Assembly (NCBI RefSeq): GCF_000878135.1
Contig: NZ_JXQZ01000032.1
Location: 1 to 64,000, forward strand
Length of the DNA stretch: 64,000 nucleotides
Direction of reading: 5' to 3'
From: Frigoribacterium sp. MEB024
Lineage (GTDB): Bacteria; Actinomycetota; Actinomycetes; Actinomycetales; Microbacteriaceae
The position numbers and the translations under genes were made by a program. This document shows, one piece after another, positions 1 through 60,331 of the stretch. How positions within the stretch are numbered: the first letter of the stretch is position 1; every line of letters starts with the position of its first letter. A model generated the notes under the pieces. That model saw nothing but the letters and a program-made list of their open reading frames with translations, had not been told where the DNA came from and did not search any database.

Positions 1-1659
1 CTTCGTGGAGGTCGTGCTGGTCGTGAGGGCGGGCTCGGCGGGGGCGGCGGGTGCGGCGTCGGGCGGGCCCGCGGGGTCGCGCCGGAAGACGAGGCGGGGC
101 AGCGTGACCTGCCGACCCGCGCCTCCTGGGCCCGCGTCCGACGACGCACCGGGGCCGGTGGAATCGCCGACGAGCTCGACGGTCTCGGTGTCGTCGCCGA
201 CGACGCCGCGCTCGAGCGCCAGGTCGAGCATGCTGAGGACGAGCGCGAGGCGGCGGAACTCGGGCTCGGTGGCGCGGTACACGTCGACGCTCGTGACCTC
301 GTCGTGGTCGGCGAGCAGCCGGTCGATCGTCGCCGAGACGGCCGCCGTGCTCGTGCCCGAGGTGAGGCGGAGGGCGGCCCGGTCGGCCTCGGGCAGGGTC
401 GCGTCGCCGATCGTCACCTGCACGTCGACCGTCGGCCGTGCGCGGTCGGTGTGCAGCTGCACCTGGCTGACGTCACGGACGTCGAGCGCCCCGAGGCCGA
501 GCCCGTCGCCGTGCTCGACCGGCAGCATGGCGTGGCCCGGCCGGCGCTCGGCCCAGACGCCACCCGCGTGCAGCGCCCGGTCGGCGAGGGTGAGCAGGCG
601 CTGCTGCTGATCGGAGCCCGACCGGCTGAGGAAGCGCCGCAGCGAGGACGTCCAGCGACCGTAGGTCTCTTGCACGCTCTGCTCTTCGGCGAGCAGCGAC
701 GAGATGAGCGACTCGAGCTGCGTGCGCTGTCGCTCGGTGAGCTGTGCGGCGGCGTCGGGTTGCGCGAGGACCTTCTCGATGTCGGCCCGCATCACGTCGA
801 TGCCGCGCGACGACAACATCTGGGCGAAGCCGCGGTAGGCGCGTCCCTCGGGGGTCTGCTCGAGCAGGTCGTTGTCGCGCAGGTACTGGTCGACGAGCGC
901 GCCCTTGCCGACGTGTTCGGACGAGGCCCGGCGCGCGACCTCGCGGTGCCGCTGCTCGACCATGGCGCCGAGCTGCCGGAAGTCCTCGGGCAGCGACGCG
1001 GTCAGACGGACCACCTCGCGCACCTGTCGGCGCAGCACGTCGGGAGCGGTGGGTTCGGTGCCGTGCCGCTCGATCTCGGCCTTGCGGCGCTCGAGCTCGG
1101 CGATCTGCTCGTCGAGTCGCGCGAGCTGCGACTCGCGGCTGGGATCGGCGAGGCCCGCGAGCTGCCCGACGGCGTGGGCGATGCTGCCGAGGCGGGCCTC
1201 GCTGACGGCGTTGTCGCGCTCGACGAGGTCGCGCACGAGACGCAGCGCCTTGAGCGCGTGCGGTGACAGGCGGTACTCGGCACGGGCGTCCGGTCCGGAG
1301 GCGCGGGTGCGGACGAGCCAGCGGCTCTCGACCCAGCTGCGGCAGTACTCGGCCGGGGTGGTCTTCTGCTCGGTGGGGGCAGACGTGGCGACGGGCGTCG
1401 GGGACGCGGGCCGCGCCTCCTCGGGGGACCGCTCGGACGCCGCCTGGTCGGCGGCGTTCTGCTCGAGGGCGTCGGCGACCTGCCGGTGGAACCAGTCGGC
1501 GGACACCGGACCCTCGGCGTGCTCGAGGTGGCGGGAGAAGAGCGGCAGCATCCACCGGGCGTTGTAGCCGCGAAGCAGGGCCCAGGTGGGGTCGTCTTCG
1601 TACGCCGCGCGCACGTCGTCGCGGCTCAGGGCGTCGTCGTGCCCCGACGGGTGGTTCAC
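1..1659 (-). CDS. DUF3375 protein, JetA-like (partial, C-terminus off window)
   Basis: The reading frame starts at GTG 1659, nine bases after a GGAGG, and is still open at base 1, giving 553 residues. The product begins with an alpha-helical region (DDPTWALLRGYNARWMLPLF), has a YCRSWVESRWLVR stretch near residue 110, then a long coiled coil (LDEQIAELERRKAEIE, about residues 180-200) and a SLRRFLSRSG helix. This order and these phrases are those of the DUF3375 family. In type I Wadjet systems DUF3375 is JetA, the kleisin-like partner of an SMC ATPase that acts with the nuclease JetD against plasmids. JetB, JetC and JetD would lie downstream, to the left of the window, so membership of a complete Wadjet locus is inference. 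Family assignment is fairly sure; the gene carries three copies of the GGAGGCGCGG repeat. Confidence 0.75.
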   Translation of the reverse strand, partial: MNHPSGHDDALSRDDVRAAYEDDPTWALLRGYNARWMLPLFSRHLEHAEGPVSADWFHRQVADALEQNAADQAASERSPEEARPASPTPVATSAPTEQKTTPAEYCRSWVESRWLVRTRASGPDARAEYRLSPHALKALRLVRDLVERDNAVSEARLGSIAHAVGQLAGLADPSRESQLARLDEQIAELERRKAEIERHGTEPTAPDVLRRQVREVVRLTASLPEDFRQLGAMVEQRHREVARRASSEHVGKGALVDQYLRDNDLLEQTPEGRAYRGFAQMLSSRGIDVMRADIEKVLAQPDAAAQLTERQRTQLESLISSLLAEEQSVQETYGRWTSSLRRFLSRSGSDQQQRLLTLADRALHAGGVWAERRPGHAMLPVEHGDGLGLGALDVRDVSQVQLHTDRARPTVDVQVTIGDATLPEADRAALRLTSGTSTAAVSATIDRLLADHDEVTSVDVYRATEPEFRRLALVLSMLDLALERGVVGDDTETVELVGDSTGPGASSDAGPGGAGRQVTLPRLVFRRDPAGPPDAAPAAPAEPALTTSTTSTK

Positions 1660-1753
1660 CAAGCAAGACCTCCGGCAATCGTCGGACGACGATACCAACT
1701 GGTGACGCTCCGCTCGGCGACGGTGTCGCTCGTCGTCCGCAGCGGCCAGGATG

Positions 1754-1793
1754 GGGGGATGGGGATGGGGATGGGGATGGGAATGGGGATGGG
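1754..1793 (+). repeat. GGGGAT hexanucleotide tandem repeat over a start codon
   Basis: Six to seven near-perfect copies of GGGGAT run through the start region of the lipoprotein gene. They create six in-frame ATG codons (1759, 1765, 1771, 1777, 1783, 1789), each preceded by a G-rich run. Loss or gain of one unit keeps the frame, so length change would alter only the number of Met-Gly pairs and the choice of start. The G-runs could also form a quadruplex; that is inference. Confidence 0.85.
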
Positions 1794-4390: not shown

Positions 4391-5365
4391 ATGACCTCGC
4401 CGATCGACCACGCCGACCCGACACCCGTCGTGCACGTGCTGCACGACAACGCCGAGTGGCTGCCGCCGCTCGTCGCCGCGCTCGACGCCGCGGGGGTGCC
4501 CCACCGCGAGCACCTGCTCGACGGGACGTCCTTCGACCTCGCGGCCGCGCCTCCTGAGGGGGTGTTCTGGTCGCGGCTGAGCGGATCGGCCCACACGCGC
4601 GGCCGGGGGACCGCGAAAGAGGTCGCCCGGGCGACCCTGCGCTGGGCCGAACGGCACGGGCGCCGGACCATCAACGGCAGCGGTGTCGTCGAACTCGAGG
4701 TGAGCAAGGTGGCGCAGTACCTGGCGCTGGCGTCCGCCGGGTTCGACGTCCCCGCGACGACCGCCGTGTTCGGCACCGCCGACCTCAAGGCGCGGGCCCG
4801 CGAGCAGACGCTGCCGTTCATCACGAAGCACAACCAGGGCGGCAAGGGCCTCGGTGTGCGGCGCTTCGACGACCTCGACTCGTTCGACGCGTACGTCGAC
4901 GGGCCCGACTTCGAGGTGCCGGTCGACGGGATCACCCTGCTGCAGGAGTTCCTGCAGGCCGAGCAACCCTTCAACACGCGCGTCGAGTTCGTCGGCGGGC
5001 GGTTCGTCTACGCGGTGCGCGTCGACACCTCGGCCGGCAGCTTCGAGTTGTGCCCCGCCGACGCGTGCGTCGTGCCCGACGGCGCCGACCCGGCCACCTT
5101 CGCCCCGTTCGCGGTGCGCCCCTCGGTCACCGCCGAGCACCCGCTCGTGAGGCGGCTCGAAGCCTTCGTCGCCGAACAGGGCATCGAGGTCGCGGGCATC
5201 GAGTTCATCGAGACCGTCGACGGTCGCTTCGTGCCCTACGACGTCAACACGAACACCAACTACAACCCCGACGTCGAGCGGTCGTCGTCGGTATCGGCCG
5301 CCGCGACGCTCGCCGCGTGGCTGGGCGAGGTGCTGGCGGCGGAGTACGCCGCGACACCGGCCTAG
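4391..5365 (+). CDS. ATP-grasp ligase (RimK-like)
   Basis: The 324-residue protein shows ATP-grasp features: a lysine strand (LPFITKHNQGGKGLGVRRF, about residues 138-156), a hinge stretch ITLLQEFLQ, and the metal-binding end VAGIEFIETVDGRFVPYDVNTNTNYN. RimK-type enzymes couple ATP hydrolysis to amide bond formation between a carboxylate and an amine. ATG 4391 follows CACGAT with six bases between, a leaderless-type arrangement, and there is no ribosome site. The gene is alone, between the hydrolase and a hairpin. The acceptor substrate cannot be read from the sequence. Confidence 0.75.
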   Translation: MTSPIDHADPTPVVHVLHDNAEWLPPLVAALDAAGVPHREHLLDGTSFDLAAAPPEGVFWSRLSGSAHTRGRGTAKEVARATLRWAERHGRRTINGSGVVELEVSKVAQYLALASAGFDVPATTAVFGTADLKARAREQTLPFITKHNQGGKGLGVRRFDDLDSFDAYVDGPDFEVPVDGITLLQEFLQAEQPFNTRVEFVGGRFVYAVRVDTSAGSFELCPADACVVPDGADPATFAPFAVRPSVTAEHPLVRRLEAFVAEQGIEVAGIEFIETVDGRFVPYDVNTNTNYNPDVERSSSVSAAATLAAWLGEVLAAEYAATPA

Positions 5366-5646: not shown

Positions 5647-6060
5647 CTAGCGACGCGGAGGCGCGGGTGGCGCCGGCGAGGTCGCGAACGCCACGGCCGC
5701 GAGGCCGGTCAGCACGACCGCACCGATCGTCACGGGTGCGAGCGGCCCGGCGAACGCTGCGGCAAGGCCGACGGGTGTGCCGAGGCCCACGACGAGCTGG
5801 CCCACCACCAGCAGCACGAGGCCGAACGCGGAGCCCAGAAGGCTCACCCGGGCCAGGTCGTGCAGTCGCCGGGAGTCGTCGGCGAGGCGGCGCGTGCCCG
5901 ATGTTCCCGGCAGGCCGGCGGAGAGTCGGCGTCGCATCCGCACGAAGAGCACCAACGCGACCAACGACAGCAGCAGCGGGACGGCACTGCCGATCGTGAG
6001 GGCGGTCTGCACGACGCCGAACAAGGCGTCGGTGCCACCGGGGGAGGGCGGGGTGCTCAT
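5647..6060 (-). CDS. Small membrane protein of unknown function
   Basis: The 137-residue protein has three predicted membrane helices: about residues 14-42 (VVQTALTIGSAVPLLLSLVA), 70-100 and 105-125, with a basic loop (RMRRRLSAG) after the first. It ends in a proline-rich tail (SPAPPAPPRR) encoded partly by a GGAGGCGCGG repeat copy. ATG 6060 is preceded by GGAG five bases upstream. No family is recognised and neighbours give no hint. Confidence 0.65.
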   Translation of the reverse strand: MSTPPSPGGTDALFGVVQTALTIGSAVPLLLSLVALVLFVRMRRRLSAGLPGTSGTRRLADDSRRLHDLARVSLLGSAFGLVLLVVGQLVVGLGTPVGLAAAFAGPLAPVTIGAVVLTGLAAVAFATSPAPPAPPRR

Positions 6061-9555: not shown

Positions 9556-11321
9556 CCGCCCGAGGTCCCGGCGTCTGCCGGGGGCTCGGCGGATCGGACC
9601 GGAGTCGAGAGAGCGACCCCGGGGAGGTGCGGTGCCGTGGGGTCCGCGAAGCGCGGGCGCTCCGGGAAGGGTTTCGGCTCCGAGGCCGTCTCGGGGGCGG
9701 ACGGGACCAGGGGGATCGGCGCGGTCACGGGCGTGGGCGCGGCGACCGGCGGCTCCGTGACGGGTGGTGCCGTGACGGGCGCCTCCGCGGCGACCGTCGG
9801 CACGATGACGCTGATCGGCGTCGTGTCCGTGTGCACCGACTGCACGCGCACGCGCTTGGCCCGGCGCAGCCACCGACGGGCGCCCGGGGTTGCGAGCAGG
9901 CTGCCGAGCACGAGTCCGGCGCCGATCGCCAGCGTCGTGAGCATCGAGAACACGAAGTCGACCTCGGCACCGTCGTTGCCGGCCATGAAGTTCAGCAGCG
10001 ACGACGCCACGGCGAGCGACGGCAGCAACGACCCGCAGAAGGCCGGCACCGCGATGACCGTCGCGGCCGTCCGCAGACGTGCCGCGGCCACGGTCGAGAG
10101 CGCACCCAGCAGGGTCGCCGCGACGAAGGTCGCCCCCATCAACGGCAGCCCGAGGTGGCGCAGGGTGAAGAGCGAGACGTTGCCGACCAGGGCGACCCCG
10201 ATCGTGATCGGGATCATGCGGGCGGTCGACCCCTGGGCGATCGAGTTGGCCGACGCCGCGGCGAAGCTCGAGATGAGCGAGAGCCAGAGGGGCAGCGCCT
10301 GCAGCGTGATGTTCGTCGGGTCGACCTCGATGTCCGCGAACCGTGCGGTCACGGCGAGTCCGGCCGGGATGCCGCACACGACCCCGGCGACGATCAGCCC
10401 GATCACCAGGGCGCGGCCGACCGCCATCGACCGGAAGCCCGAGATCGCGTCCTGGGCCCAGGTGACGATCGTGGGGTGCGGCAGGACGAGGACGACCACG
10501 GCCGCGACCAACGCCGCCGCGCCTCCCGGGGTCAGCAGCCCCGCCCAGATGCCGAGCGTTCCGAGTGCGGCGGTGGACGCGGCCTGCAGGCCGATGACGA
10601 AGAACTGGGGGATGCCGCGGGCGCTGAGCCCTCGACCGGACGTCATGATGCCGATCATCACCACGAAGGCGCCGACGGCGGCCTGCCACGTGCCGCCGGC
10701 CTGCAGCGTCACGGAGACGCCCAGCAGACCCATCGCCAGGTCGGTCAGCCACGACGGCCACCGGGGCGGGGACTTCAACACCTCGACGAGGCCGGCCACC
10801 GCCTCGGTCATGTCGCGGTCGTCGTGCAGCAGGTCGTCGACGATCTGGTAGACCCTCGACAGCCGGTGCAGGTTCGAGCCCTCGGCGTAGATGACCCGGG
10901 TCTTGACCAACGGGTTGACGCCGGCCGGGGCGTACTGGATGGTGATCGCCGTGCCCGTGATGTCGAGTTCGAGCGGGGCCAGGTTCCATTTGGTGCTCAC
11001 GGCCACGATCGCGACCTCGGTGCTGCGGACGTCGGCACCCGACGACAGCATGACGTCGCCCAGGTCGAGGCAGAAGTCGACGATCTGTCGGGGCGAGTAG
11101 AGGTCGCCGCCGATGCCGTGCTCGGGCGTCGTGCCCTCGTAGATGGTGCCGCGCAGTCGTGCCCGGACGTCGCGCAGTTCGTGCTGGTTGACCAGTCGCG
11201 ACTGGGCGGGCCCCTTCGGCCTGGCCTTCGGGGCCTTGGGCACCCGAGGAGGCCGAGGCCTCACCGGAGTGGGCCGCTCAGGGCGCCTGGCGTCCGACAC
11301 GCTGACCTCTTCCTCGCTCAT
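9552..11321 (-). CDS. thrE: ThrE-family threonine/serine exporter
   Basis: The 589-residue protein has a cytosolic N-terminal ThrE domain (about residues 60-200, with LCLDLGDVMLSSGAD-like FCLDLGDVMLSSGADVRSTE and a THLYRLSR-like NLHRLSRV stretch), followed by about ten membrane helices (about 200-460) and a long proline/valine-rich C-terminal tail. This single-chain layout is that of Corynebacterium glutamicum ThrE, which exports threonine and serine with proton motive force. ATG 11321 is the only start fitting the domain. A TAGACT box on the minus strand near 11376 may be its promoter. The stop overlaps that of the methyltransferase on the other strand by four bases. Confidence 0.85.
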   Translation of the reverse strand: MSEEEVSVSDARRPERPTPVRPRPPRVPKAPKARPKGPAQSRLVNQHELRDVRARLRGTIYEGTTPEHGIGGDLYSPRQIVDFCLDLGDVMLSSGADVRSTEVAIVAVSTKWNLAPLELDITGTAITIQYAPAGVNPLVKTRVIYAEGSNLHRLSRVYQIVDDLLHDDRDMTEAVAGLVEVLKSPPRWPSWLTDLAMGLLGVSVTLQAGGTWQAAVGAFVVMIGIMTSGRGLSARGIPQFFVIGLQAASTAALGTLGIWAGLLTPGGAAALVAAVVVLVLPHPTIVTWAQDAISGFRSMAVGRALVIGLIVAGVVCGIPAGLAVTARFADIEVDPTNITLQALPLWLSLISSFAAASANSIAQGSTARMIPITIGVALVGNVSLFTLRHLGLPLMGATFVAATLLGALSTVAAARLRTAATVIAVPAFCGSLLPSLAVASSLLNFMAGNDGAEVDFVFSMLTTLAIGAGLVLGSLLATPGARRWLRRAKRVRVQSVHTDTTPISVIVPTVAAEAPVTAPPVTEPPVAAPTPVTAPIPLVPSAPETASEPKPFPERPRFADPTAPHLPGVALSTPVRSAEPPADAGTSGG

Positions 11322-11430
11322 GACCGGTCGGGCCGGGGCGCCGCCGAGGCGGTCCCGCGGACCCGTCCGTCGAGTCTAGGAGGCGCGGCGCCGGGCGTCC
11401 GGGCCCGTCGCGTCGAGCAGGTCGTCGGCC

Positions 11431-11991: not shown

Positions 11992-12091
11992 CGCCCGCGC
12001 CTCGGGGGTCCTGTCAGACGGGAGGCGCGGGGTACGTCGCGTGGACACGCCGACCGGGAATGCCGGGAGGCGCGAACGGCTTGGACCACGG

Positions 12092-13213
12092 ATGAGCACC
12101 ACCGAGACCCCCCAGACCGACAGCACGCAGTCCGCCGCCGGAACCGTTCCCGGCACCGCCCTCGTGGTGGGCGCCAGCGGCATCACCGGCACCGCCCTCG
12201 TCGAGCAGTTGACGCGCGACGGGTGGGACGTCCTCGCCCTCTCGCGCCGCGCCTCCTCGTCCGCCGGGGTGACGGGCATCGCCGCCGACCTGACGAGCGC
12301 CGAGAGCCTGCGCACCGCGCTGGCCGACGCGAAGCCGACGCACGTGTTCTTCGCCGCGTGGCAGAAGCGCGACACCGAGGCCGAGAACATCGCGGTGAAC
12401 GGCGCGATGGTCCGCGACCTGCTGGCCGCTCTCGACCACGCCCCGGTGCGGCACGTGTCGCTCGTCACGGGGCTGAAGCACTACCTCGGCCCGTTCGAGG
12501 CCTACGGCACGGGGAACATGCCCGACACGCCCTTCCACGAGGACGAGGAGCGCCTGCCCTACCCGAACTTCTACTACGCACAAGAGGACGAACTCTTCGC
12601 CGCCGCCGAGCGCCAGGGGTTCACCTGGTCGGTGCACCGCTCGCACACCGTCATCGGGTTCGCCGTGGGCAACGCCATGAACATGGGGCTGACCATCGCC
12701 GTGCAGGCCGCGCTGAGCAAGCGCCTCGGTCGTCCCTTCGTCTTCCCCGGCAGTGAGACCCAGTGGAACTCGCTCGTCGACGTCACCGACGCGGGCGTCC
12801 TCGCCGAGCAGATGATCTGGGCCGCGACCGACCCGGCGGGTGCCGACGAGCCGTTCAACATCGTCAACGGCGACGTCTTCCGGTGGCGTTGGCTGTGGCC
12901 CCGTCTCGCCGGCCACCTCGGCATCGACCCGGCCCTCGTCGAGGGCTTCGAGGGCGAGCCCCGACCGCTCGAGCAGCAGATGGTCGGCCTTGAGCAGGAG
13001 TGGCGGGACCTCGTCGCCGAGCACGACCTCGCCGAGCCCGAGCTGTCGCGGGTCGCCTCGTGGTGGCACACCGACGGCGACCTCGGCCGTGACATCGAGG
13101 TCGTCACCGACATGGGCAAGGCCCGCGACGCCGGCTTCACCCGGTACCGCCGCACCGAGCAGGCGTTCGTCGACCTGTTCGAGCGCTACCGCGCCGCCCG
13201 CCTCATCCCGTAG
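12092..13213 (+). CDS. PRISE-like SDR oxidoreductase
   Basis: The 373-residue protein has an N-terminal NAD(P)-binding motif GASGITG (about residues 26-32) and phrases typical of the PRISE group of atypical short-chain dehydrogenases: TGLKHYLGPFEAYG, FYYAQEDELF (the YxxxE-type active-site stretch) and SVHRSHTVIGFAVGNAMN. Plant members are progesterone 5-beta-reductases and iridoid synthases that reduce activated C=C bonds; bacterial members have the same enone reductase activity in vitro. The natural substrate here is unknown. ATG 12092 is the first start in frame with the Rossmann fold. An inverted pair of GGAGGCGCGG copies follows the gene. Confidence 0.8.
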   Translation: MSTTETPQTDSTQSAAGTVPGTALVVGASGITGTALVEQLTRDGWDVLALSRRASSSAGVTGIAADLTSAESLRTALADAKPTHVFFAAWQKRDTEAENIAVNGAMVRDLLAALDHAPVRHVSLVTGLKHYLGPFEAYGTGNMPDTPFHEDEERLPYPNFYYAQEDELFAAAERQGFTWSVHRSHTVIGFAVGNAMNMGLTIAVQAALSKRLGRPFVFPGSETQWNSLVDVTDAGVLAEQMIWAATDPAGADEPFNIVNGDVFRWRWLWPRLAGHLGIDPALVEGFEGEPRPLEQQMVGLEQEWRDLVAEHDLAEPELSRVASWWHTDGDLGRDIEVVTDMGKARDAGFTRYRRTEQAFVDLFERYRAARLIP

Positions 13214-13225: not shown

Positions 13226-13267
13226 AGGAGGCGCGGTGCCGGTGACGAGACCGGCGTCGCGCCTCCT
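13226..13267. terminator. Hairpin built from an inverted repeat-family pair
   Basis: AGGAGGCGCG (13226-13235) pairs with CGCGCCTCCT (13258-13267); inside it GCCGGT pairs with ACCGGC. It lies between the convergent reductase and permease genes, so it probably terminates both. Confidence 0.6.
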
Positions 13268-14788: not shown

Positions 14789-14969
14789 GCTGACCTCCGG
14801 GGCGCATCGGTGTGTCTCGGGCGTTCCGGTCATCCTGCTCCGGTCGTCGTGGCGAAGGAAGAGGCGGCCGCACATCGTCACGGCCCCGAAACGTGGGAGG
14901 GCGTCCACACGACGGCGAGGAGGCGCGGCCGGCACCCGGGGACGCAGGCCGTTCCCGAGCCACGCGTCG

Positions 14970-16637: not shown

Positions 16638-16735
16638 CCCGGCGGACGAGGAGGCGCGGGTGCCAGGGTGGGAGGTCGCGGCCCGTCCGCCGCGCGACCC
16701 GCTCCCGGGGTCGCCGCCCGATCGAAGGAACCACC

Positions 16736-17124: not shown

Positions 17125-20100
17125 TCAGGCGTCGAGCAGGCCGCGGATGTCGTCGGCGGTGAGCGCCGCGCTGAACACGGCGTCGTCGTCCATCACGGCG
17201 TCGAACAGCTGCGACTTCTGGGCCTGGAGGGCCAGCACCTTCTCTTCGATGGTGTCGTTGGCGATCATCCGGTAGACCATCACGTTGTCGGTCTGGCCGA
17301 TGCGGTGCGTGCGGTCGACCGCCTGGGCCTCGGTGGCCGGGTTCCACCACGGGTCGAGGATGAACACGTAGTCCGCCTCGGTGAGGTTGAGCCCGAACCC
17401 GCCCGCCTTGAGGCTGATGAGGAACGCGGGTGCGGTGCCGGTCTTGAACCGGTCGATCACCTCGGCCCGACGTCGGGTCGACCCGTCGAGGTACTCGAAC
17501 GCGACTCCACGCTGTTCGAGCCGGGCGGCGACCTTGTGCAAGAACGTCGTGAACTGGCTGAAGATCAAGGCGCGGTGCCCCTCGGCGACCACGTCCTCGA
17601 GTTCGTCGAGCAGCTGGTCGAGCTTCGCCGAGGGGATGTCGGCGTAGGCCTCGTCGACGAGCGAGGCGTCGAGCGACAGCAGGCGCAGCAGGGTGAGAGA
17701 CCGGAAGACGATGAACCGGTTGCGGTCGAGGTCGTCCATCAGGCCGAGCAGCTTCTGCCGCTCACGCTGCAGGAAGGCGTCGTAGAGGTCGCGGTGCGCG
17801 GGGTCGAGGTCGACGCGCAACACCTGCTCTTGCTTGGTCGGCAGGTCGGAGGCGACCTGCTCTTTCGTGCGGCGCATCATCAACGGTCGGATGCGCTTGC
17901 GGAGCTTCTGCAGGAGCTCGGGTGCCTCACCCGTCGCGATCGGCTTGACGTAGTCGTCGGCGAACCGGACTCCGCTGCCGAGCAGGCCGGGCGCCACCAC
18001 GTGCAGCAGCGACCACAGGTCGGTGAGGCTGTTCTCGAGCGGCGTGCCGGTGATCGCGAGCTTGAACGGCACGTCGAGGTCGACCGCGCACCGGTGGGCC
18101 TGCGACGCACGGTTCTTGACGAACTGCGCCTCGTCCAGGATCAACCCGGCCCAGCCCTCGGTCTGGTACGCGGCGAAGTCGAGGCGGAAGAGCGCGTACG
18201 AGGTCACGACGACGTCGGCACCCTGCGCGAGGTCGTGCACCGACCCGCGCCCGCCCTTCGCCTGGGTGGCGGTCACGGCCCGGACGGCCAGCCCCGGGGT
18301 GAAACGAGCGGCCTCGGCCACCCAGTTCGACACGACCGACGTCGGGGCGACGACGAGGAAGGGCGCGGGCGCGGTGCTCGGAGCGTCCGACGTCGCCGTG
18401 TCGGCGGCGACGTCGGCGGCCCTGGCTCGTTCGGTCTCGCGAACGTGCGCGACGAGCGCGAGCGTCTGCAGCGTCTTGCCGAGCCCCATGTCGTCGGCCA
18501 GGACGCCGCCGAGCCCCTGGTCGTGGAGGAAGGCGAGCCAGGCGAACCCCTCGTGCTGGTACGGGCGCAGGGTCGCGTCGACCGCGCTCGGCACGGGGAT
18601 CGCCGTGGCGGCCTCGAGCCCACCGGCGTCGGCGAGGGCCAGCAGCCCGCCGACCGCCTGCTGCCACTCGGCGGCGGGGACGGTCTCGTCCGCGAGTTCG
18701 TCGAGCTCGGACCAGAGGCTCGCCTGGTAGCGATTGATGCGCGGAGCCACCTGCCATTCGTCGAGCGCCGACGCCTCGTCGATCAGTCTCTTGAGCTCGT
18801 CGAAGGCCGGGTGGTCGAGGGACAGGTACGAGTGGTCGACCAGCAGCAGCTTCTTCCGCCCCTTCGCGAGGGCGGTGATGAGCGGCGTGAAGGGGACGGT
18901 CCGTCCCTCGACGGTCACCAGCACGCCGAGGTCGAACCAGTCGCGCTTGTCGGTCGGCATCGTGGTGATGGTCAGGCGTGGCTCGTCGGTCAGCTCGCGA
19001 TAGTCGGGCCGGGTGCCGACGAGGTCGACCTGCAGGTCGGTTCGCGCCTCGAGGGCGGGCAGCGTGCCGGTCGCGAACTCGGCTGCGGTCACCCCCTTGA
19101 GCACCTGATCGCGCGGGACGACGTCGAGCTCGCCCAGGTCGGGGACGGGGGAGTGCGCCGTCAGCGGCCGGAGCGTGCCGTCGATGGTCCACCCCCACGT
19201 CAGGCGGATCGCCTGCCCCTTCTCGAAGGCGACCGTGAGGGTCAGCACGGGCGGCACGATCGTCGGGAACTCGATCGAGGCGTCCGAGCTGACGACGTCG
19301 ACGCGTCGGCGAAGGGTGGGGTAGTAGTCGCGCAGGAACTCGGCTGAGTCGGCGGCCGGCACGACCACCTCGGGCGTGACGGTCAACAGTCGGCGCTGCT
19401 CGTCGTCGAGCGGAGCCGCGGTCGGCGCGAGGGTGAAGGTCAGCGCGGGTTCGTGGGCGACGCACCACACCCCGTGGTCGGCGATGACGCCGGTCGACTC
19501 CGCGCGACGGGCCACTCCGTCGACGGTGACCCCGGCGGTCAGCAGCATCGAGCCGTCGTCGCCGAGCACGGCGTCGACGGTCACCCGGGCCTCGTCGCCG
19601 ACGACGACGTCGGTCGAACGCTTGCCCGTCACGAGAGCGATGCCGAGGCGCTCGGCTTCGGCCAACAACGGCCAGAGCAGGGGGCTGCCGAAGTCGTCGA
19701 CGAACAGCCAGTCGGCGTCGCCCGGCGTGTAGGTCGAGACGGCCGACCGGTGCAGCGCCGCGAACTGGCCGAACCAGGCGTGCTGCTCGGGCTCGATGGC
19801 GAGCCGGTTCAGTTGGTACGGCAACGACGACCACGTGAGGTTGCCCCGCACCCAGTTGCCCGTGCCGCTCAGGGTGACGGGCCGCACGCCGAGTCGCTGC
19901 ACCGTCGGTCCGCCTCGTCGCCGGGCGGAGGGCGCGACCGCGCGTCCTCGGGTCGAGTGAGCCCGGTCGCGCAGTTCGAACAGCAGCCCCATGCGCGTCG
20001 TCCGGACCGAGGAGGCGCGGGTCGGCTGCCCGATCGCCCCCACCGTCGACCGCCAGTCGCTCCCGCCCGTGCCGGGCCGTGCAGCACCCAGCGCGGTCAC

Positions 20101-26573: not shown

Positions 26574-26576
26574 TTC

Positions 26577-43589: not shown

Positions 43590-43617
43590 CCGGGAGGCGC
43601 GGGGCGCGTTCCCGGGG
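43590..43617. terminator. Hairpin containing a dispersed-repeat copy
   Basis: CCCGGGA (43590-43596) pairs with TCCCGGG (43611-43617) between the convergent cupin and esterase genes; the loop is a GGAGGCGCGG copy. Confidence 0.5.
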
Positions 43618-44437: not shown

Positions 44438-45105
44438 GTCCGATCCACCGCGTCGTCGGGCAGGACCAGCAGGTCGAGGTGGTCCTGCAACTGCTGCACC
44501 ACGTCGATGCGGTCCGGGTCGAGGAGCCACTGCAGCTGGATGCCGTCCCACAGGGCCACGAGCCCGGACGCCGCCCGGTCGGGGTCGACCCCGGGGCGCA
44601 ACCGACCCCGCGCCTCCAGCGCTCGCAGAGCGTCGCCGTACTCGGCACGCAGACGCTCGAAGCGCTCGCGCACGTAGTCGCTGCCGGGGTTGCCGGTCGT
44701 GACCGCCTCGCCCGCCAGCACCGCGTAGAGCGCGATGAGCCCGGGGACCGTCTCGTTGTGTCGCGCCTGTCCGAGGACGGTCCCGATCAGGTCACCCGGG
44801 TCGGGAGGCTCGGCCGAGCGGTCCGAGACCGTGTCGCGACGTTCGAGCACCGCGAGCAGCAGCGCGCTCTTCGACGGGAAGTAGTGCAGCAGGCTCGTCT
44901 GACTCATGCCGACGACGTCCGCCACGTCTCGGAGCGACCCGCCGACGTAGCCCTTGGTCGAGAACACCTCGAAGGCCGCCTCGACGATCGCGAGCCGGCG
45001 TTCGGCCGACTTCGCGTACGGGCCGCGACGCGCGGGACGAGAACCGTCGGCGGCACCGGTGGGCACGCCGCCTGGGTCGCTCGTCGTCGAGCCGGTCGTC
45101 GTCAT
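44434..45105 (-). CDS. TetR-family transcriptional regulator
   Basis: The 223-residue protein has a TetR helix-turn-helix (about residues 35-80: EAAFEVFSTKGYVGGSLRDVADVVGMSQTSLLHYFPSK) and a C-terminal helical domain of the TetR_C_6/BetI type (GLIALYAVLAGEA). It overlaps the esterase gene and is divergent from the ABC sugar operon. A 24-base palindrome lies between the two transcription units, about 40 bases from the regulator start, and is its probable operator. Confidence 0.87.
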   Translation of the reverse strand: MTTTGSTTSDPGGVPTGAADGSRPARRGPYAKSAERRLAIVEAAFEVFSTKGYVGGSLRDVADVVGMSQTSLLHYFPSKSALLLAVLERRDTVSDRSAEPPDPGDLIGTVLGQARHNETVPGLIALYAVLAGEAVTTGNPGSDYVRERFERLRAEYGDALRALEARGRLRPGVDPDRAASGLVALWDGIQLQWLLDPDRIDVVQQLQDHLDLLVLPDDAVDRT

Positions 45106-45209: not shown

Positions 45210-46549
45210 ATGAACATGAGCCCGATGTCCCGACGGCAGTTGCTCGGCCTGGGGGTGACCGCCGGCGCCACTGCCATGCTCGCCGGCTGCGCCACACCCG
45301 GGACGGCCTCGGTCAACACCCTGCCGACCATCCCCGCGGCCGACGGCCCGGTCAAGCTCCAGTACTGGGCCTGGCTCAAGGGCCTCGACCAGGTCACCGC
45401 GCTCTACAACGAGAGCCAGTCGCGAGTGCAGGTCGAGACCGTCTTCATCCCCGGCGGCAACGCGGGCGGCTACCAGAAGCTGTACTCGGCGCTCGCCGCG
45501 GGTGCCGGCCCCGACATCGCCCAGGTCGAGCTGCGCTCGCTGCCCGAGTTCCTGCTCGCCAACGGCGTCGTCGACCTCAAGCGCTACGGCGCCGACAAGT
45601 ACGCCGACCTCTACGACCCCACGCTCTGGAACCAGGTCAGCTACACCGACGGCATCTACGCGATCCCGCAGGACAGCGGCCCGATGGGCATGTTCTACCA
45701 GCCCGCCGTCTTCGACACGGTCGGCGCCGCCGTCCCCACCACGTGGGACGAGTGGGCCGCGGTCGGCACCGAGCTGAAGGGGGCCGGCGTGCTGATGGAC
45801 TCCTTCCCGCTCGCCGACGCCTCGCTCTTCGCCGCCTACGCCACCCAGGCCGGTGCGTCGTGGTTGCGCGCCGAGGACGACGGCTGGGTCATCGACATGA
45901 CCGACGAGGCGACGCTCACCGTCGCCCGCTTCTTCGACAAGGCGATCGACGACGGCATCGTCACGACCGCCTACGGCGCCTACACGCCGGCCTGGTTCTC
46001 GGCCGCCAGCGCGGGCACCATCGCGTCGGTCGCGACCGGCTCGTGGGGCGACGCCCTGATCGAGGGCGTCAGCGGCGCCGAGGGCAAGTGGAAGTGCGCC
46101 CCGCTGCCCACCTGGCAGACCGGCTACGCCTCGAGCTTCCTCGGCGGCTCGACCGCCGCCATCCTCGCGAACAGCAAGCACCCCCGGGAGGCGCTCGACT
46201 TCGCCGTCTGGATGACCACGACCCCCGAGGGCATCAACGCCCTCATCGAGTTCTGCGGCATCGGTTGGTCGCCGGCGCGCGACGTCGTCGGCTCGCTGCG
46301 CGAGCAGCCCAGCCCGTTCTTCAGCGGTCAGAACTACAACCAGGAGGTCTTCGTGCCCGCCACGAAGGAGTCCTCGCAGAACCAGGACTGGAGCTGGTGG
46401 CCCATCACCCAGCAGTCCTTCAACATCTTGAGCGACGGCTTCCGGGGCAAGGCGTCGGGCGGCACGCTCGTCGACGCCGTGGCGCAGGCCGAGAAGGACA
46501 TCATGGCCGTCTTCCAGAACAAGGGCCTCACCATCCGGAAGGCGAACGC

Positions 46550-46553
<4 letters not shown>
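45210..46553 (+). CDS. ABC sugar transporter substrate-binding lipoprotein
   Basis: The 447-residue protein begins with a Tat-lipoprotein signal: SRRQLLGLGVTAGATAMLAGC, read here as twin-arginine SRRQLLG and lipobox LAGC. The mature part is a family 1 solute-binding protein (LQYWAWLKGLDQVTALYNES, GPMGMFYQPAVFDTVG, TWDEWAAVGTELK, SFLGGSTAAILANSKHPREALDF). GAAGTGAG precedes ATG 45210. It delivers a sugar to the two permeases that follow with overlapping starts; the downstream beta-galactosidase suggests a beta-galactoside. No ATPase gene is in the operon, so a shared MsiK-type ATPase elsewhere is likely. Confidence 0.9.
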
Positions 46554-51620
<5,067 letters not shown>

Positions 51621-51727: not shown

Positions 51728-52426
51728 TCAGCCGTCGCGGCGGGTGGCACGCACGACCACGTCGGCCACGTGCCAGACGTCGCCGGCGGGTCCCGTCATG
51801 TCGCGCGGTCGCGTCTCGGCGACCTCGACCTGCCACGCGTCGGGGGAGAGCCGACCGACCACCTCGTCGACGGTGAACAGCATGCCCGGATCGCCGTGCC
51901 TCCCGGCCCCACCCGGCAGGGCGTCGGCGTCGTGCCCGACGACCAACAGCGTGCCGCCCGGCGCCACGCCCTCGGCCAGCGCCGGGAAGAGCCGCTCACG
52001 GTCGACGAGCGGGAGGTGCATGAAGTGCGCCGTGACGAGGTCGAAGGAGGCGCGGGTCGGGCTCCACGTCGTGAGGTCCGCCTGCTGCCACGAGAGCTGC
52101 TCGGGGTCGACGTCCTCCCGCTCACGGGCCGAGGCGGCCGCCTTGTCGAGGGCGTTCTGCGAGATGTCGACGCCGGTGACCTGCCAGCCCCGCGCGGCGA
52201 GCCAGAGGGCGTCGCCGCCTTCTCCGCTGCCGACGTCGAGCGCACGGCCGGGGGTCAGGGCCGTGGCCTCGGCGACGAGGGCGGCGTTGGGGCGGCCGCT
52301 CCAGGCGCGGCCGGGCTGCCCGTAGCGGTCCTCCCAGTAGTCGCGGTCGAAGACGGGGTGGGCGTGCCCGTGTCGCTCCTGCTCCCGGTGGTCCTGGGGC
52401 TGCTGCCCTCGCTCTGCCTCGCTCAT
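51728..52426 (-). CDS. Class I SAM-dependent methyltransferase
   Basis: The 232-residue protein has FDRDYWEDRYGQPGRAWSGRPNAAL, then motif I ALDVGSGEGGDALWLAARG, the acidic strand VTGVDISQNAL, and FDLVTAHFMHLP with a later VAPGGTLLVVGHD. The opening resembles small methyltransferases of the TehB/thiopurine type. ATG 52426 overlaps the stop of the reductase-like gene, so they are one operon. Substrate unknown. Confidence 0.82.
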   Translation of the reverse strand: MSEAERGQQPQDHREQERHGHAHPVFDRDYWEDRYGQPGRAWSGRPNAALVAEATALTPGRALDVGSGEGGDALWLAARGWQVTGVDISQNALDKAAASAREREDVDPEQLSWQQADLTTWSPTRASFDLVTAHFMHLPLVDRERLFPALAEGVAPGGTLLVVGHDADALPGGAGRHGDPGMLFTVDEVVGRLSPDAWQVEVAETRPRDMTGPAGDVWHVADVVVRATRRDG

Positions 52427-53513: not shown

Positions 53514-54146
53514 ATGACGGACATGAGCCATCCGACGAACACCCCCGGTGCCGACACCGCGAGCACCGACGACGTCCTCGCCGCGGTCGGCCCGCGCCTC
53601 CGTGCCCTGCGTGCGCGGCGGGGCGTGACCCTCGCCGAGCTGGGGGAGCGCACCGGCATCTCGGTCAGCACCCTGTCCCGGCTCGAGTCGGGGCTCCGGC
53701 GGCCGACCCTCGAACAGCTGCTGCCGCTCGCCCGCGAGCACGGGGTGCCGCTCGACGACCTGGTCGGGGCGCCCGAGACCGGTGACCCCCGCGTGCACCT
53801 CAAGCCGCGGCAGCAGCACGGCATGACGGTCGTGCCGCTGTCGCGCGGCGGCGGTGCGATCCAGGCCTTCAAGATGGTCATTCCTGCGGACTCGCCTCGG
53901 AGCGAACCCGTGCTCCGCACCCACGAGGGCTACGACTGGCTGTACGTGCTGCGGGGGCGCGTCCGGCTCGTGCTGGGCGACCTCGACCTCGTCCTGCCGG
54001 CAGGCGAGGCGGCCGAGTTCGACACGCGCACGCCGCACTGGTTCGGTCGCGCCGACGACCGGGCCGTCGAGGTGCTCAGCCTGTTCGGCCGCCAGGGCGA
54101 GCGGCTGCACCTGCGCACCGCGCCCGCCTCGCCCGGGACCGACTGA
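53514..54146 (+). CDS. XRE-family regulator with cupin domain
   Basis: The 210-residue protein has an N-terminal helix-turn-helix (LRALRARRGVTLAELGERTGISVSTLSRLESGLRRPTLEQLLPLA, here about residues 28-75) and a C-terminal cupin (HEGYDWLYVLRGRVRLVLGD and RTPHWFGRADD). Such HTH-cupin proteins sense small ligands and often control neighbouring metabolic genes; here the divergent reductase is the likely target. ATG 53514 or ATG 53523 could be the start. Confidence 0.85.
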   Translation: MTDMSHPTNTPGADTASTDDVLAAVGPRLRALRARRGVTLAELGERTGISVSTLSRLESGLRRPTLEQLLPLAREHGVPLDDLVGAPETGDPRVHLKPRQQHGMTVVPLSRGGGAIQAFKMVIPADSPRSEPVLRTHEGYDWLYVLRGRVRLVLGDLDLVLPAGEAAEFDTRTPHWFGRADDRAVEVLSLFGRQGERLHLRTAPASPGTD

Positions 54147-54579: not shown

Positions 54580-57500
54580 GTGTACCTCGACGACGACCGG
54601 GTGGTCACCAGCCCGTCCGACCTGACGACCTGGGCCGCGTGCGAGTGGTCGTTCCTCCGACGGCTCGACGCGAAGCTCGGCCGGGTCGACGCCGTCGCCG
54701 ACGCGTCCGACGACATGCTCGACCGCACGGCCCGGCTTGGCGACGCCCACGAGCTGCGGTACCTCGAGGCGCTGCGGGCGACCCGTGACGTCGTCGAGTT
54801 CGACCGTCCGGCCCCGTCGGGCTACGCGGCGGCCGCCGAGGAGGCACGGCTCGCCATGGCCTCCGGGGCCGACGTGCTCTTCCAGGCGACGTTCTTCGAC
54901 GGATCGTTCATCGGCTTCAGCGACTTCGTGGTGCGCACCGACGACGGCACCTACGAGGTCTACGACACCAAGCTCGCCCGCCACGCGAAGATCCCCGCCC
55001 TGCTGCAGGTGGCCGCCTACACCGACCAGATCCGTGCGCTCGGGCTGCCCTCGGCCGACACCGTGCGCCTCGTGCTCGGCGACGGCAGCGAGAGCGTCCA
55101 CGACGTCGCCGACGTGTTGCCGGTCTACCGGGTCCAGCGCGACCGGCTGCGGGCCGCCCTCGCCGAGCGGCTCGCCGCCGACGGGCCGCTCGCCTGGGGC
55201 GACTCGGGCGTCACCGCCTGCGGGCGCTGCACGGCCTGCCAGGCCCAGGTCGACGAGCACCGCGACCTCGTGCTCGTCGCCGGCCTGCGCGGCGAACAAC
55301 GTCAGCGGCTGCATCTGGCCGGGGTCGCCACGATCGACGAGCTCGCCGGGTCGGACGGGCCCGTCGCCGGCATCGGGGCGACGGCCCTTGCCCGGCTGCG
55401 GGGGCAGGCCCGGGTGCAGCTCGCCACCGAGCGCGACCACACCGGTGTGCCCGCGGTCGAGGTCGTCGACGCCGACGCCCTGCGGACGATCCCTCGGCCC
55501 GACGCCGGCGACGTCTTCTTCGACTTCGAGGGCGACCCGCTCTACACCGAGGGCGACGGGCGAGCCTGGGGCCTCGACTACCTCTTCGGGCTGGTCGAGG
55601 CCGACGGCACCTTCCGGGCCTTCTGGGCGCACGACTTCGCGGGCGAGCGGCAGGCGCTGATGGACTTCCTCGACTACCTCGCCGAGCGCCGCCGACGCTT
55701 CCCCGACCTGCACGTGTACCACTACGCCTCGTACGAGCGCAGCCACCTGCTCTCGCTCGCGGCGCGCCACGGCGTCGGCGAGGACGCGGTCGACGACCTC
55801 CTCCGCGACGGCCTGCTCGTCGACCTCTACCCGGTCGTGCGGCAGGCGTTGCTGGTCGGGTCGCACAGCTACTCGCTCAAGAAGCTCGAGCCGCTCTACA
55901 TGGGCGACGACCTGCGGCAGAGCGACGTCAAGACGGCCACCGCCAGCATCACGATGTACGTCGACGCCATCGCCGAACGCACCACGGGCGACGCGGCGCG
56001 GGGTGACCTGATGCTCGACGAGGTCCGCGACTACAACGAGTACGACTGCCGGTCGACCCTGCGGCTGCGCGACTGGTTGCTCGAGCTGGCCGACCGGCAC
56101 GGCACCCGGGGCGACGACCCCGAGGGCCCGACCGCGCCCGACCCGCTCGAACTCGCCCGCGTGCCCCGCGAGCCGAACCCGGTCGCCGTGGGCCTCGCGG
56201 CGCACGTGGCGGACGTCGACCCGCTCGACCGCACCCCCGACCAGACCGCGATCGCCCTCGCGGCGTCGGCCATCGACTACCACCGCCGCGAGGCCAAGAC
56301 GTTCTGGCAAGAGCACTTCGACCGCCTCCGCAACCCGGTCGACGACTGGGCCGACACCCGCGACGTGTTCGTCGTCGAGACGGCCTCGGTCGAGCGCGAA
56401 TGGCAGAAGCTGCCCCGGGCCCGCAAGCTCAGCCGCGAGGTGCGGCTGCGCGGTCGCCTCGCGCCCGGTAGCCGCCTCACCGAAGGAGGCGCGCCCTACG
56501 CGGTCTACGACGCCCCCGTCCCGCCCGGGGTCGCCTCGCTCGGCCCCGGACTGCGTGGTGCCGTCGGGTCGACGGTGGTCGAGGCCGGCCCGAACGGCGA
56601 CCGGCACGAGGTCGTGCTTCTCGAGCGCGTCACCGGCGACGACGACCGGCACGACGCGTTCCCGGTCGCGCTGACGCCCGCCGCGCCTCCCCGGGCCACC
56701 CCGCAGCCCGAGGCGATCGCCGAATGGGGTGGGCACGTGCTCGACGCCCTGCCCGAGATGCTGCCCGATCCGGCATTCGACCTGCTGCGGCGGCAGCCGC
56801 CGCGTCGGCGGTCGGGCGGCGGGCCCGCACCCGTGGTCGGCAACGACACCGTCTCGGCCGTCGTCGAGACCATGCTCGACCTCGACCGGTCGTACCTGGC
56901 GGTGCAGGGCCCGCCCGGCACGGGCAAGACCTACGTCGGTTCGCGGGTCATCGCCCGGCTGGTGCGTGAGCACGGCTGGCGCGTCGGCGTCGTGGGGCAG
57001 TCGCACGCGGTGGTCGAGAACGTGTTGCGTGCGGCGATCACGGCCGGGGTCGATCCCGAACGGGTGGGCAAGGTGCCGAAGTCGGGCACGACCGCCGTAC
57101 AGGCCGACGAGCAGCCCTGGCGCACCCTGAGGTCCGGCGGCGAGGCCGCGTTCCTCGCCGAGGCCGACGGTGGGGCGGGCGGTACCGGGGTCGACGGCGG
57201 CGGGCAGGCCGTGGGGGCCGTGTTCGGGGCCACCGCCTGGGGGTTCGCCAACGCCGACAAGGTGGCCCGCGCCTCCCTCGACCTGCTGGTCGTCGACGAG
57301 GCCGGGCAGTTCTCGCTCGCCTCGACCGTGGCGGCGTCGGTCGCCGCGACGCGGTTGCTGCTGCTCGGCGACCCTCAGCAGCTGCCGCAGGTCAGCCAGG
57401 GCAGCCACCCCGAGCCGGTCGACGAGTCGGCCCTCGGCTGGCTGGCCGACGGCCACGACGTGCTGCCCGCCGAGTACGGCTACTTCCTCGCCACGACCTG

Positions 57501-58983: not shown

Positions 58984-59283
58984 ATGGTCCGTCTGCCGCT
59001 CACGCCCGCCGAGATCGAACGCGGTCGCCGCCTCGGGGTGCTGCTGAGGCGGGCCAGGGGCTCCCGGCCGATGCTGCAGGTCGCCCTCGACGCCGGGCTG
59101 TCGCCCGAGACCCTGCGCAAGATCGAGACCGGTCGAGTCGCGACGCCGGCCTTTCCGACCATCGCCGCGATCGCCGCCGTCGTCGGCGTCTCGCTCGACG
59201 ACGTCTGGGCCGAGATCACGCGCGACGGGGCCGGGGGAGCAGCGGACGCACCGTCCGTCGTCGACGCGGCCCGCGCCTCCTGA
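58984..59283 (+). CDS. Small XRE-family DNA-binding protein
   Basis: The 99-residue protein is one helix-turn-helix domain (about residues 15-75): RRLGVLLRRARG, LQVALDAGLSPETLRKIETGR and FPTIAAIAAVVGVSLDDVW. It has no sensor domain. The stop TGA sits directly after a CCGCGCCTCC repeat copy that codes the final ARAS. Divergent from map. Its targets are unknown. Confidence 0.8.
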   Translation: MVRLPLTPAEIERGRRLGVLLRRARGSRPMLQVALDAGLSPETLRKIETGRVATPAFPTIAAIAAVVGVSLDDVWAEITRDGAGGAADAPSVVDAARAS

Positions 59284-59357
59284 CCCCGTCGAGGTGTCGC
59301 TCACCTGTCGGGGCGACAGGCACGTCGTGACGCCTCGGTCACCCGAGGAGGCGCGGT
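59270..59357. terminator. Inverted dispersed-repeat pair between convergent genes
   Basis: CCCGCGCCTCCT (59270-59281) and GAGGAGGCGCGG (59345-59356) face each other across the XRE and tmk gene ends. A smaller palindrome (CCTGTCG and CGACAGG) lies between them. It probably acts as terminator for both directions. Confidence 0.5.
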
Positions 59358-59358
59358 G

Positions 59359-60015
59359 TCAGCCCTGCGGACGCGCCAGCGACCCGAGGTCGAGCCGGGT
59401 CGACACCTCGTGCCAGACGGCCTCGGCGAGTTCGTCGGTCGACCGGTCGGCGTCGACCGTGACGACGACCTCGTCGGCCCGCTCGATCGCCTCGGCGTAG
59501 CGTTCGCGGGCTGCCCGGAGCCGCTCGTCGACCTCGAACCGGTCGGTCGTCGTGCGTCCGCTGGCGAGGCGCTCGAGGGCGACCTCGGGCGAGACGTCGA
59601 GGTAGATCGTCAGGTCGGGCAGCATCAGGTCGGTGCTGATGGAGTTCGACGAGGCGATCCACTCGCTGCCCACGTCGGACGCCTGGTAGGCCTGTGACGA
59701 CAGGTGGTACCGGTCGCAGAGGACGGTCGTGCCCCGCTCGACGATGCCGAGCATGCCGTCGTGGGCGTTGGTGATGTGGTCGAGGCGGTCGGCGACGAAG
59801 AGCGACGCGATGACGCGGTCGTCGAGGTCGATCCGGCGGTTGAAGCCGTTGCGGATCAACGTGCCGACGGGGCCGTTGGTCGGCTCGGCCGTCTGGTGCA
59901 CGGGCACCCCGGCGTCCTGGAGGCGGGCGGCGAGCAGGCGTGCCTGCGTCGACTTGCCCGACCCGTCGATGCCCTCGAACACGATGAACGCCCCACGGGC
60001 TGCCTGTTCCGTCAC
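59359..60015 (-). CDS. tmk: Thymidylate kinase
   Basis: The 218-residue protein has the P-loop FEGIDGSGKSTQA (about residues 13-25), the DR(Y/H) motif in LCDRYHLSSQAYQ and a LID region with ERLASGR. It phosphorylates dTMP to dTDP. GTG 60015 is the start: TAGGCT lies exactly six bases upstream and there is no ribosome site. It is not next to the usual holB gene. Confidence 0.92.
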   Translation of the reverse strand: MTEQAARGAFIVFEGIDGSGKSTQARLLAARLQDAGVPVHQTAEPTNGPVGTLIRNGFNRRIDLDDRVIASLFVADRLDHITNAHDGMLGIVERGTTVLCDRYHLSSQAYQASDVGSEWIASSNSISTDLMLPDLTIYLDVSPEVALERLASGRTTTDRFEVDERLRAARERYAEAIERADEVVVTVDADRSTDELAEAVWHEVSTRLDLGSLARPQG

Positions 60016-60331
60016 CCGACGAGCCTACCGATCGCCGGACCGGCCGAGGCGACGGCCGCGTCGCACGACGAGGTCGTGCTGCGGTTCGGTGCGTCCGCCC
60101 GACGGGCGACACCCCAGGAGGCGCGGTGAGGTCCCCGATCCCGCCCTCGACGTCTCCGGTCAGCACACGGTGGTGAACGATGCAGGGTGCGCGGTCACCG
60201 GTGATCGGTGCGGGGCTGAGTGGTGACGACGTGAGTCGTGGCGCTGCCCTCCGCGCCTGCAGGGTGACCGGGATGACCGCCGGTCTCGGTTCGTGCTCGC
60301 CCCGGTGACGTCTACCGACTCACCGCGCAGG
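60016..60331. other. 316-base intergenic stretch
   Basis: No convincing gene. It holds the leaderless tmk promoter (TAGGCT on the minus strand at 60022-60027), a dispersed-repeat copy (60116-60126) and a 10-base palindrome TCACCGGTGA (60195-60204). Confidence 0.5.

Follow-up and report, generated by a model that had tools for sequence, protein, structure and literature searches.

Uptake sequences are known from the Neisseriaceae and the Pasteurellaceae (PMC5031613, PMC3630211, PMC1939737; these and the other articles below are cited from the parts of their text available to us). DNA uptake sequences (DUS) are described as non-palindromic words of 10–12 bp that occur in hundreds to several thousands of copies, both in genes and between them, that form inverted pairs, and that differ between lineages as dialects around a short core (PMC3630211, PMC5031613). 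In the counts given in PMC1939737, known uptake sequences lie in open reading frames to 65% or 35% and in inverted repeats to about 10%, and are commoner in non-coding DNA than expected; one of them exceeds expectation both as perfect copies (438 observed vs. 3 expected) and as copies with one mismatch (947 vs. 86). Here we describe a 10-letter word, GGAGGCGCGG, dispersed through 64,000 nucleotides of Frigoribacterium sp. MEB024 (Microbacteriaceae; contig NZ_JXQZ01000032.1, positions 1 to 64,000), the whole of which stretch we call the window, and we consider whether this word may be a tag by which self DNA is recognized.

Exact copies of GGAGGCGCGG number 40 in the window, with 19 of them on the plus strand and 21 on the minus strand, compared with a mean of 1.89 and a maximum of 5 in 100 dinucleotide shuffles. 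A preliminary description of this DNA, based on a hand count, had put the number at about 39 (19 and 20 per strand) where composition predicts about two; that prediction agrees with the shuffles, and the excess stands with the count corrected. Enrichment also extends through the rest of the genome and survives a codon-aware null, the two points on which the preliminary description had staked its proposal. The whole assembly (3,406,371 bases, i.e., 3.41 Mb, in 136 contigs) contains 1,576 copies, 814 on the plus and 762 on the minus strand, compared with 54 (27 on each strand) for the same word read backwards, which served as a control. In 612 kb of the genome, where 225 copies were observed, a fourth-order Markov model expects 5.8. 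Within the genes of these 612 kb, as called by our own codon-usage script rather than a standard gene finder (the script misses low-GC genes), GGAGGCGCGG occurs 138 times, whereas 30 rounds of shuffling synonymous codons inside each predicted gene, which preserves both the protein and its codon use, gave a mean of 16.8 and a maximum of 24. The corresponding numbers for AGGAGGCGCGG are 88 and 4.7, and the read-backwards word is not enriched in genes (8 observed vs. 22.2 expected). The other 87 copies are non-genic and lie within 11% of the DNA, and in a 224 kb part the intergenic copies number 29, compared with 0.8 in dinucleotide shuffles.

Among the 225 copies, A precedes the word in 163, and G mostly comes next, then T or C. 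Single-change variants summed over the first eight positions (173) are near expectation (150), and those at the last two positions number 148 vs. 26 expected; with the last two positions thus relaxed, the core would be about GGAGGCGC in a word of 11–12 bp. Mean spacing in the 612 kb is 2.7 kb, and the distribution is near random except for a surplus of close pairs. Strand counts are even on the three longer contigs (80–282 kb; 55/48, 32/33, and 22/24), and are 8/3 on the short contig C2. The genic share is 61% (138/225), with 61 copies on the same strand as their gene and 77 on the opposite strand, and every reading phase is used. Intergenic density is 1.75 copies per kb in convergent gaps, 1.19 in tandem gaps, and 0.99 in divergent ones. 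Adjacent copies less than 60 bp apart form 22 pairs, compared with 5.2 expected under uniform placement, a null that is blind to the intergenic preference; 16 of the 22 are inverted, 13 of these 16 lie in tandem or convergent gene gaps, and the close inverted pairs, two of which have a copy in common, contain 31 of the 225 copies (14%).

In the window, copies lie within and between genes as had been described, 27 or 28 of the 40 being genic depending on which of two sets of gene models is used. The accompanying claim that inverted pairs form hairpins at convergent gene ends holds for one clear case, a hairpin at 24236-24297 with arms at 24248 and 24276 between convergent genes (−58.7 kcal/mol, z −9.2), and was otherwise overstated: the copies at 59271 and 59347 are inverted at a distance of 76 bp, and those at 33456 and 33474 are on the same strand within a gene. 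A promoter and terminator scan of 20–30 kb gave nothing clear, with 2 terminator-like sites vs. 1.2 in shuffles. The copies in the window, and the motif-poor stretch at its end, are as follows:

117-126 (-): motif copy, genic, predicted gene 1-1659 (-)
1297-1306 (+): motif copy, genic
1411-1420 (-): motif copy, genic
4545-4554 (-): motif copy, genic
5657-5666 (+): motif copy, genic
10517-10526 (-): motif copy, genic
11379-11388 (+): motif copy, intergenic
12021-12030 (+): motif copy, intergenic, divergent
12247-12256 (-): motif copy, genic
13227-13236 (+): motif copy, intergenic, convergent
14919-14928 (+): motif copy, intergenic, divergent
16650-16659 (+): motif copy, intergenic, stop codon 12 bp before; kept in 4/4 close relatives
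20011-20020 (+): motif copy, genic; one mismatch in 1/4 close relatives
21622-21631 (-): motif copy, genic
24248-24257 (-): motif copy, left arm of the hairpin, between convergent genes
24276-24285 (+): motif copy, right arm of the hairpin 24236-24297
25797-25806 (+): motif copy, intergenic or at a gene 5' end, depending on the model set; kept in 4/4 close relatives
26592-26601 (-): motif copy, intergenic, stop codon 18 bp before
28410-28419 (-): motif copy, genic; kept in 4/4 close relatives
28549-28558 (+): motif copy, genic; also in 5/7 more distant genomes of the genus
29235-29244 (+): motif copy, intergenic, convergent
31347-31356 (-): motif copy, genic
33456-33465 (-): motif copy, genic, in tandem with the 33474 copy at 18 bp
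33474-33483 (-): motif copy, genic, in tandem with the 33456 copy
33601-33610 (+): motif copy, genic
37400-37409 (-): motif copy, genic
37911-37920 (+): motif copy, genic
43593-43602 (+): motif copy, intergenic, convergent
44608-44617 (-): motif copy, genic
46597-46606 (-): motif copy, genic, transport permease gene
49206-49215 (+): motif copy, genic, family 2 glycoside hydrolase
49620-49629 (-): motif copy, genic, same hydrolase gene as the 49206 copy
50720-50729 (-): motif copy, genic, same hydrolase gene as the 49206 copy
52046-52055 (+): motif copy, genic
53592-53601 (-): motif copy, genic
56681-56690 (-): motif copy, genic
57267-57276 (-): motif copy, genic
59271-59280 (-): motif copy, gene 3' end, inverted to the 59347 copy, 76 bp apart
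59347-59356 (+): motif copy, intergenic, convergent
60117-60126 (+): motif copy, intergenic, followed by 17.9 kb free of the motif
60200-64000 (no strand): low-GC, motif-poor stretch, starting in the window and extending beyond it as far as about 98 kb on the contig

Both same-strand copies at 33456-33483 belong to a short in-frame tandem repeat in one gene.

With the DUS of the Neisseriaceae, as far as the available text describes them, the Frigoribacterium word shares word type, copy number, genic and intergenic placement, inverted pairs, and dialect-like words in related lineages. It differs in belonging to another phylum, in its sequence, and in being GC-rich; moreover, a GGA(T/G)GC core is shared only in part among the words described below, and the word is kept in species without PilT. 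The uptake signal sequences (USS) of the Pasteurellaceae are comparable in placement (in H. influenzae, 65% lie within open reading frames, vs. 61% here), in the lack of orientation bias, and in the proportion in inverted repeats (about 10% vs. 14% here; PMC1939737). However, the word itself is unrelated to theirs, and near-miss copies are fewer in Frigoribacterium. HIP1, as the frequent cyanobacterial palindrome is named, is likewise a very frequent dispersed word, from which the Frigoribacterium word differs in not being palindromic. The cyanobacterial word GGCGATCGCC is given in a table of PMC1939737.

At orthologous positions, a point raised in the preliminary description, copies of the motif are kept more often than GC-matched 10-mers. 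Maintenance was measured in a 14.5 kb orthologous stretch, in non-independent cells, each an ordered pair of related genomes; locus L113 is left out of the motif-cell counts. Between PilT-positive genomes of at least 88% identity, 154 of 175 motif cells were kept, compared with 37% of GC-matched 10-mers; below 88% identity, 22 of 54 were kept (background 17%), and in mixed pairs, 104 of 156 (background 17%). Where copies were lost without gaps, one base differed in 26 of 38 cases (ordered pairs, L113 still included), which fits copy gain and loss by substitution, and some intergenic sites differ by gaps between relatives. In more distant Frigoribacterium species, the compared stretch carries 4 to 12 copies, many of them at other positions.

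Within Frigoribacterium, GGAGGCGCGG is present at 842–1,725 copies in all 16 genomes searched (controls 41–148). Across the family, sampled with 150 genomes of 85 genera (Frigoribacterium included), only g32 and g55 beyond the genus itself were clearly above the control with at least 50 copies. A further count took 45 of 80 named loci with matches to the family 65 hydrolase and covered 44 genomes. In Curtobacterium species, the word ranges from below the control up to 716 copies (control 91); it is below the control in Frondihabitans, Agromyces, and Arthrobacter, and near or below it in Rathayibacter.

The comparison with related genera, which the preliminary description had also proposed, revealed that other Microbacteriaceae have dispersed words of their own. 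Word discovery covered 36 genomes, with 19.7 kb to 612 kb sampled from each. Curtobacterium carries CTGGAGGCGCGG and ACGGGAGGC(G/C)CGG, words of GGAGGC types, Frondihabitans carries GCGCAGGAACTCG, and other genera carry dispersed words of the CGGATGCC type, which many have, and of the CGGATGCGC and CGGATGCCTC types; by judgement, about 10 of the 36 genomes lack a clear word, and in a similar number the word is weak. Frigoribacterium, Curtobacterium, and the CGGATGC genera have a GGA(T/G)GC core in common. Over whole genomes, the counts for CGGATGCC[G/T] are 2,619 in G077 (control 82), 2,554 in G040 (138), 1,716 in G016 (68), and 1,590 in Agromyces soli (G206; 139), and 251 in Rathayibacter (224). 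Nine other genomes were tested, each with its own word, and in every one genic copies were more numerous than in codon-preserving shuffles (G077, 25 vs. 2.2; G040, 20 vs. 3.2; G067, 17 vs. 4.7; G016, 11 vs. 1.1; G092, 12 vs. 2.7; G043, 11 vs. 1.4; G041, 14 vs. 2.0; A. soli, 24 vs. 0.8; Frondihabitans, 18 vs. 1.8), selection making up part of this excess because the words were chosen from the same samples. Other repeated words were seen in some of these genera. For example, CTCGGCGAGC, GCTCGGCGAG, and TGCTCGGCG, which are perhaps codon pairs or another dispersed word, are also several-fold over-represented in the samples from G041, G069, and G016, and A. soli (L163-L167) has a second over-represented word, AAGTCGGGCAA, whose 11-mer occurs 8 times in 100 kb. 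Rathayibacter sp. VKM Ac-2857 (L158-L162) has a repeat around GGTCTCGATACGCCCC and CTACTCGACCAGCATG, the 11-mer being intergenic in 28 of 28 cases in 100 kb, and its genome gave no Y1_Tnp match.

A search of the MEB024 genome for competence and pilus genes, suggested in the preliminary description, found both. A single type IV pilus operon lies on contig C106, where PilT was identified by profile search, PilM, PilC (T2SSF), a pilin, and the prepilin peptidase by Pfam, and pilB, pilN, pilO, and three minor-pilin-like genes by position or N-terminus; only one of these three has a Pfam N_methyl match, barely above the cut-off, and the pilB match scores below the cut-off of the PilT model. ComEA adjoins ComEC on contig C92. 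In Micrococcus luteus, an actinobacterium with ComEA/ComEC, transformation requires a type IV-like filament, the Flp/Tad pili, and the available text mentions no uptake sequence (PMC6370729), whereas the operon of Frigoribacterium is of the type IV pilus kind and includes PilT. Among the 36 genomes, ComEC and HHH_3 matches occur in all, and PilM and PilT in the same 21. PilT is associated with motif strength (13/14 vs. 8/22; Fisher, p = 0.0013), also when three more genomes are counted as strong (14/17 vs. 7/19, p = 0.008), in classes that are post hoc and with relatedness ignored in both tests. Similarly, once genomes with a word of the Frigoribacterium, Curtobacterium, or Frondihabitans type are set aside, 30 remain, and the CGGATGCC[G/T] ratio is higher in the 15 PilT-positive genomes than in the 15 others (p = 0.028, kinship uncorrected).

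We propose that AGGAGGCGCGG(G/T), with a core of about GGAGGCGC, is a putative self-DNA recognition tag of the uptake-sequence kind. This is the reading that we rank first, with our confidence in it evenly balanced, since it covers density, strand balance, placement, pairs, and dialects together; we know of no other described system that accounts for that whole set of features. Fragments bearing the word would be favored by a receptor for DNA at the cell surface, for which a type IV pilus minor pilin that acts before ComEA/ComEC is the likeliest candidate, and tagged alleles would enter and recombine more often, so that copies would arise by point substitution and spread over genes and intergenic DNA alike. 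They would gather and persist in tolerant places, i.e., in intergenic DNA and as inverted pairs (possible hairpins) at gene ends, and a shift in receptor specificity would let a new word replace the old one, leaving one dialect per lineage. We infer this receptor, its uptake preference, the resulting drive, and the change of dialect from the patterns set out above. A wider proposal, which we advance tentatively and with the balance leaning slightly against it, is that uptake-type words form a Microbacteriaceae-wide family, with a AGGAGGCGCGG dialect in Frigoribacterium and GCGGATGCC-, GCGGATGCGC-, and GCGCAGGAACTCG-type dialects elsewhere, persisting free of the pilus in at least one clade. 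Persistence without a type IV pilus would call for a non-pilus receptor or a second role of the word.

Several observations weigh against an uptake tag, two of them specifically against its pilus-driven version. No PilT match was found in 3 of the 16 Frigoribacterium genomes (G002, G006, and G014, identified through identical counts as F. faeni NBRC 103066, Leaf263, and CFBP 13712), which are mutual nearest relatives in the compared stretch and yet carry 1,415, 1,421, and 1,562 copies of GGAGGCGCGG. This trio keeps 29 of 39 motif cells (background 20–28%), i.e., no decay of the word is seen; by identity class, 19/26 and 10/13 cells are kept, compared with 22/54 and 154/175 in PilT-positive pairs. 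In Agromyces soli, matches to PilM and PilT are both lacking, and the genome is nevertheless rich in its own word, as are G041 and G026 to a lesser degree, while no word stands out clearly in 40 kb of the PilT-positive G031 and G048. PilT was not found in all word carriers, the three Frigoribacterium genomes and A. soli being without it, which suggests that the word persists without a pilus, unless the losses were recent and separate. Tad pili were considered as the machine of the PilT-less species, with no supporting result: TadE matches occur in 34 of 51 genomes, including weak ones in 6 of the 16 Frigoribacterium genomes, and are absent from all three PilT-less ones. As for the word itself, one-mismatch copies reach only 1.8 times expectation (321 vs. 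176), with 84% of the excess at the last two positions, a sharper fall-off than in the uptake-sequence counts available in PMC1939737. The Curtobacterium words are hardly enriched in genes (1 vs. 0.6, 2 vs. 0.6, and 3 vs. 1.2; the same word in G119 gave 4 vs. 0.7), and the Frondihabitans word lacks the GGA(T/G)GC core. The resemblance to uptake sequences put forward in the preliminary description is thus borne out in density, strand balance, placement, pairs, scarcity in one low-GC stretch, maintenance, dialect-like words, and machinery genes; near-misses are scarcer, and the PilT-less carriers speak against a pilus-driven version. Because of these carriers, we do not class the word as a DUS, and regard it only as built and distributed like one.

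Alternatively, the word might be the site of an intracellular chromosome-binding protein involved in nucleoid organization, replication, or repair, kept by purifying selection independently of uptake, in which case site and protein would change in concert from genus to genus. Although we consider this unlikely, it is the rival that survives best, as it would accommodate the persistence of copies where PilT is absent, the lack of strand preference, and the few extra single changes at the first eight positions. However, about 1,600 sites, 61% of them genic in the 612 kb, would need a new word between related genera, the hairpins of inverted pairs would be left without explanation, and no nucleoid protein of actinobacteria is known to us to have a site of this kind, which counts against it.

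It is improbable that the word is a terminator stem, or an intergenic repeat like the repetitive extragenic palindromic (REP) elements, that only seems dispersed. The words of Curtobacterium would suit such an origin, as they are mostly intergenic (5/7, 9/10, and 13/16; 15/19 for the same word in G119) and often palindromic hairpins, as would the purely intergenic Rathayibacter repeat (28/28), and hairpins are present in Frigoribacterium as well. In Frigoribacterium, however, the 138 of 225 copies in predicted genes, in both orientations and all phases, largely refute it, close inverted pairs account for only 31 of the 225, and the Y1_Tnp match that bears on REP-associated tyrosine transposases (RAYT) was obtained in only 1 of 36 genomes, not including MEB024.

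Very improbable, in our view, is a Chi-like recombination hotspot read by AdnAB, RecBCD, or another helicase-nuclease, for which the word is suitably over-represented, taxon-specific, and scarce in the low-GC stretch. Chi is read on one strand and has a replichore bias in E. coli, whereas the strands are equal here on the contigs of 80–282 kb, where a 75:25 split is rejected for each (1.7e-6, 2.2e-5, and 7e-4), although these contigs were not placed relative to the origin. Likewise, in G001 the 100 plus-strand copies listed reach 515 kb, for which the genome mean gives about 102, assuming the listing to be complete to that point, and the intergenic excess and the hairpins fit a Chi-like site poorly.

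Finally, that the word owes its frequency to chance, codon use, composition, or a bias in mutation is a negligible prospect, since, although the word is GC-rich like the genome, the codon-preserving shuffles (16.8 vs. 138) and the unenriched read-backwards word rule out such a cause, and family genomes of similar GC (G031, G040, G077, and A. soli) carry GGAGGCGCGG at or below the control.

From 60,117 on, where GC drops to about 64%, the motif is missing for 17.9 kb, the longest such gap in the 612 kb. Between 60.2 and 98 kb there are 2 copies vs. 14.7 expected, within borders that were chosen after the gap was seen. A resolvase-family open reading frame lies at the low-GC edge (61074-61550, plus strand), its Pfam model being matched only from position 38 on. 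The low-GC stretch may be an acquired island with this resolvase-like frame at its border; its Pfam content is mixed (a kinase, regulators, and thiamine genes), which keeps the island a conjecture. The low-GC stretch was used because, when genes were binned by GC at third codon positions (GC3), the atypical ones were not clearly depleted of the word; the 11 genes below 0.80 GC3 have no copies, and low-GC genes are undercalled. Elsewhere in the window, 45210-51620 is an ordinary sugar-use gene group with a solute-binding protein, a permease, and a family 2 beta-galactosidase-like gene, and 21712-24219 encodes a glycosyl hydrolase family 65 protein (Pfam) with matches of 86–99% to Frigoribacterium records. 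The window's family 65 glycosyl hydrolase shares 72% identity with one on contig L104, a record that bears the title Vibrio cholerae strain 35D and is probably mislabelled or contaminated.

The preliminary description held that such a system had not been described in this group, and our literature search, made in partial listings and with most subscription journals outside it, found no report of such a motif in the Microbacteriaceae or other actinobacteria; in the available text of a Clavibacter review, CGGATGCCG appears a single time, within a tabulated probe sequence (PMC12089995). Should the word have no part in uptake, about 1,600 sites per genome, kept beyond background where compared, would still need explaining. 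If it is an uptake tag, it would be the first such system in the Actinomycetota and in any Gram-positive group, as far as the literature searched shows, and a third, independent case of tagged uptake beside the Pasteurellaceae and the Neisseriaceae (PMC5031613), implying that tags evolve repeatedly. It would then offer a new system for testing why uptake tags spread, in which the species that keep the word without a pilus would constitute a natural experiment, and natural transformation would be predicted in these genera, which may open a route to their genetics.

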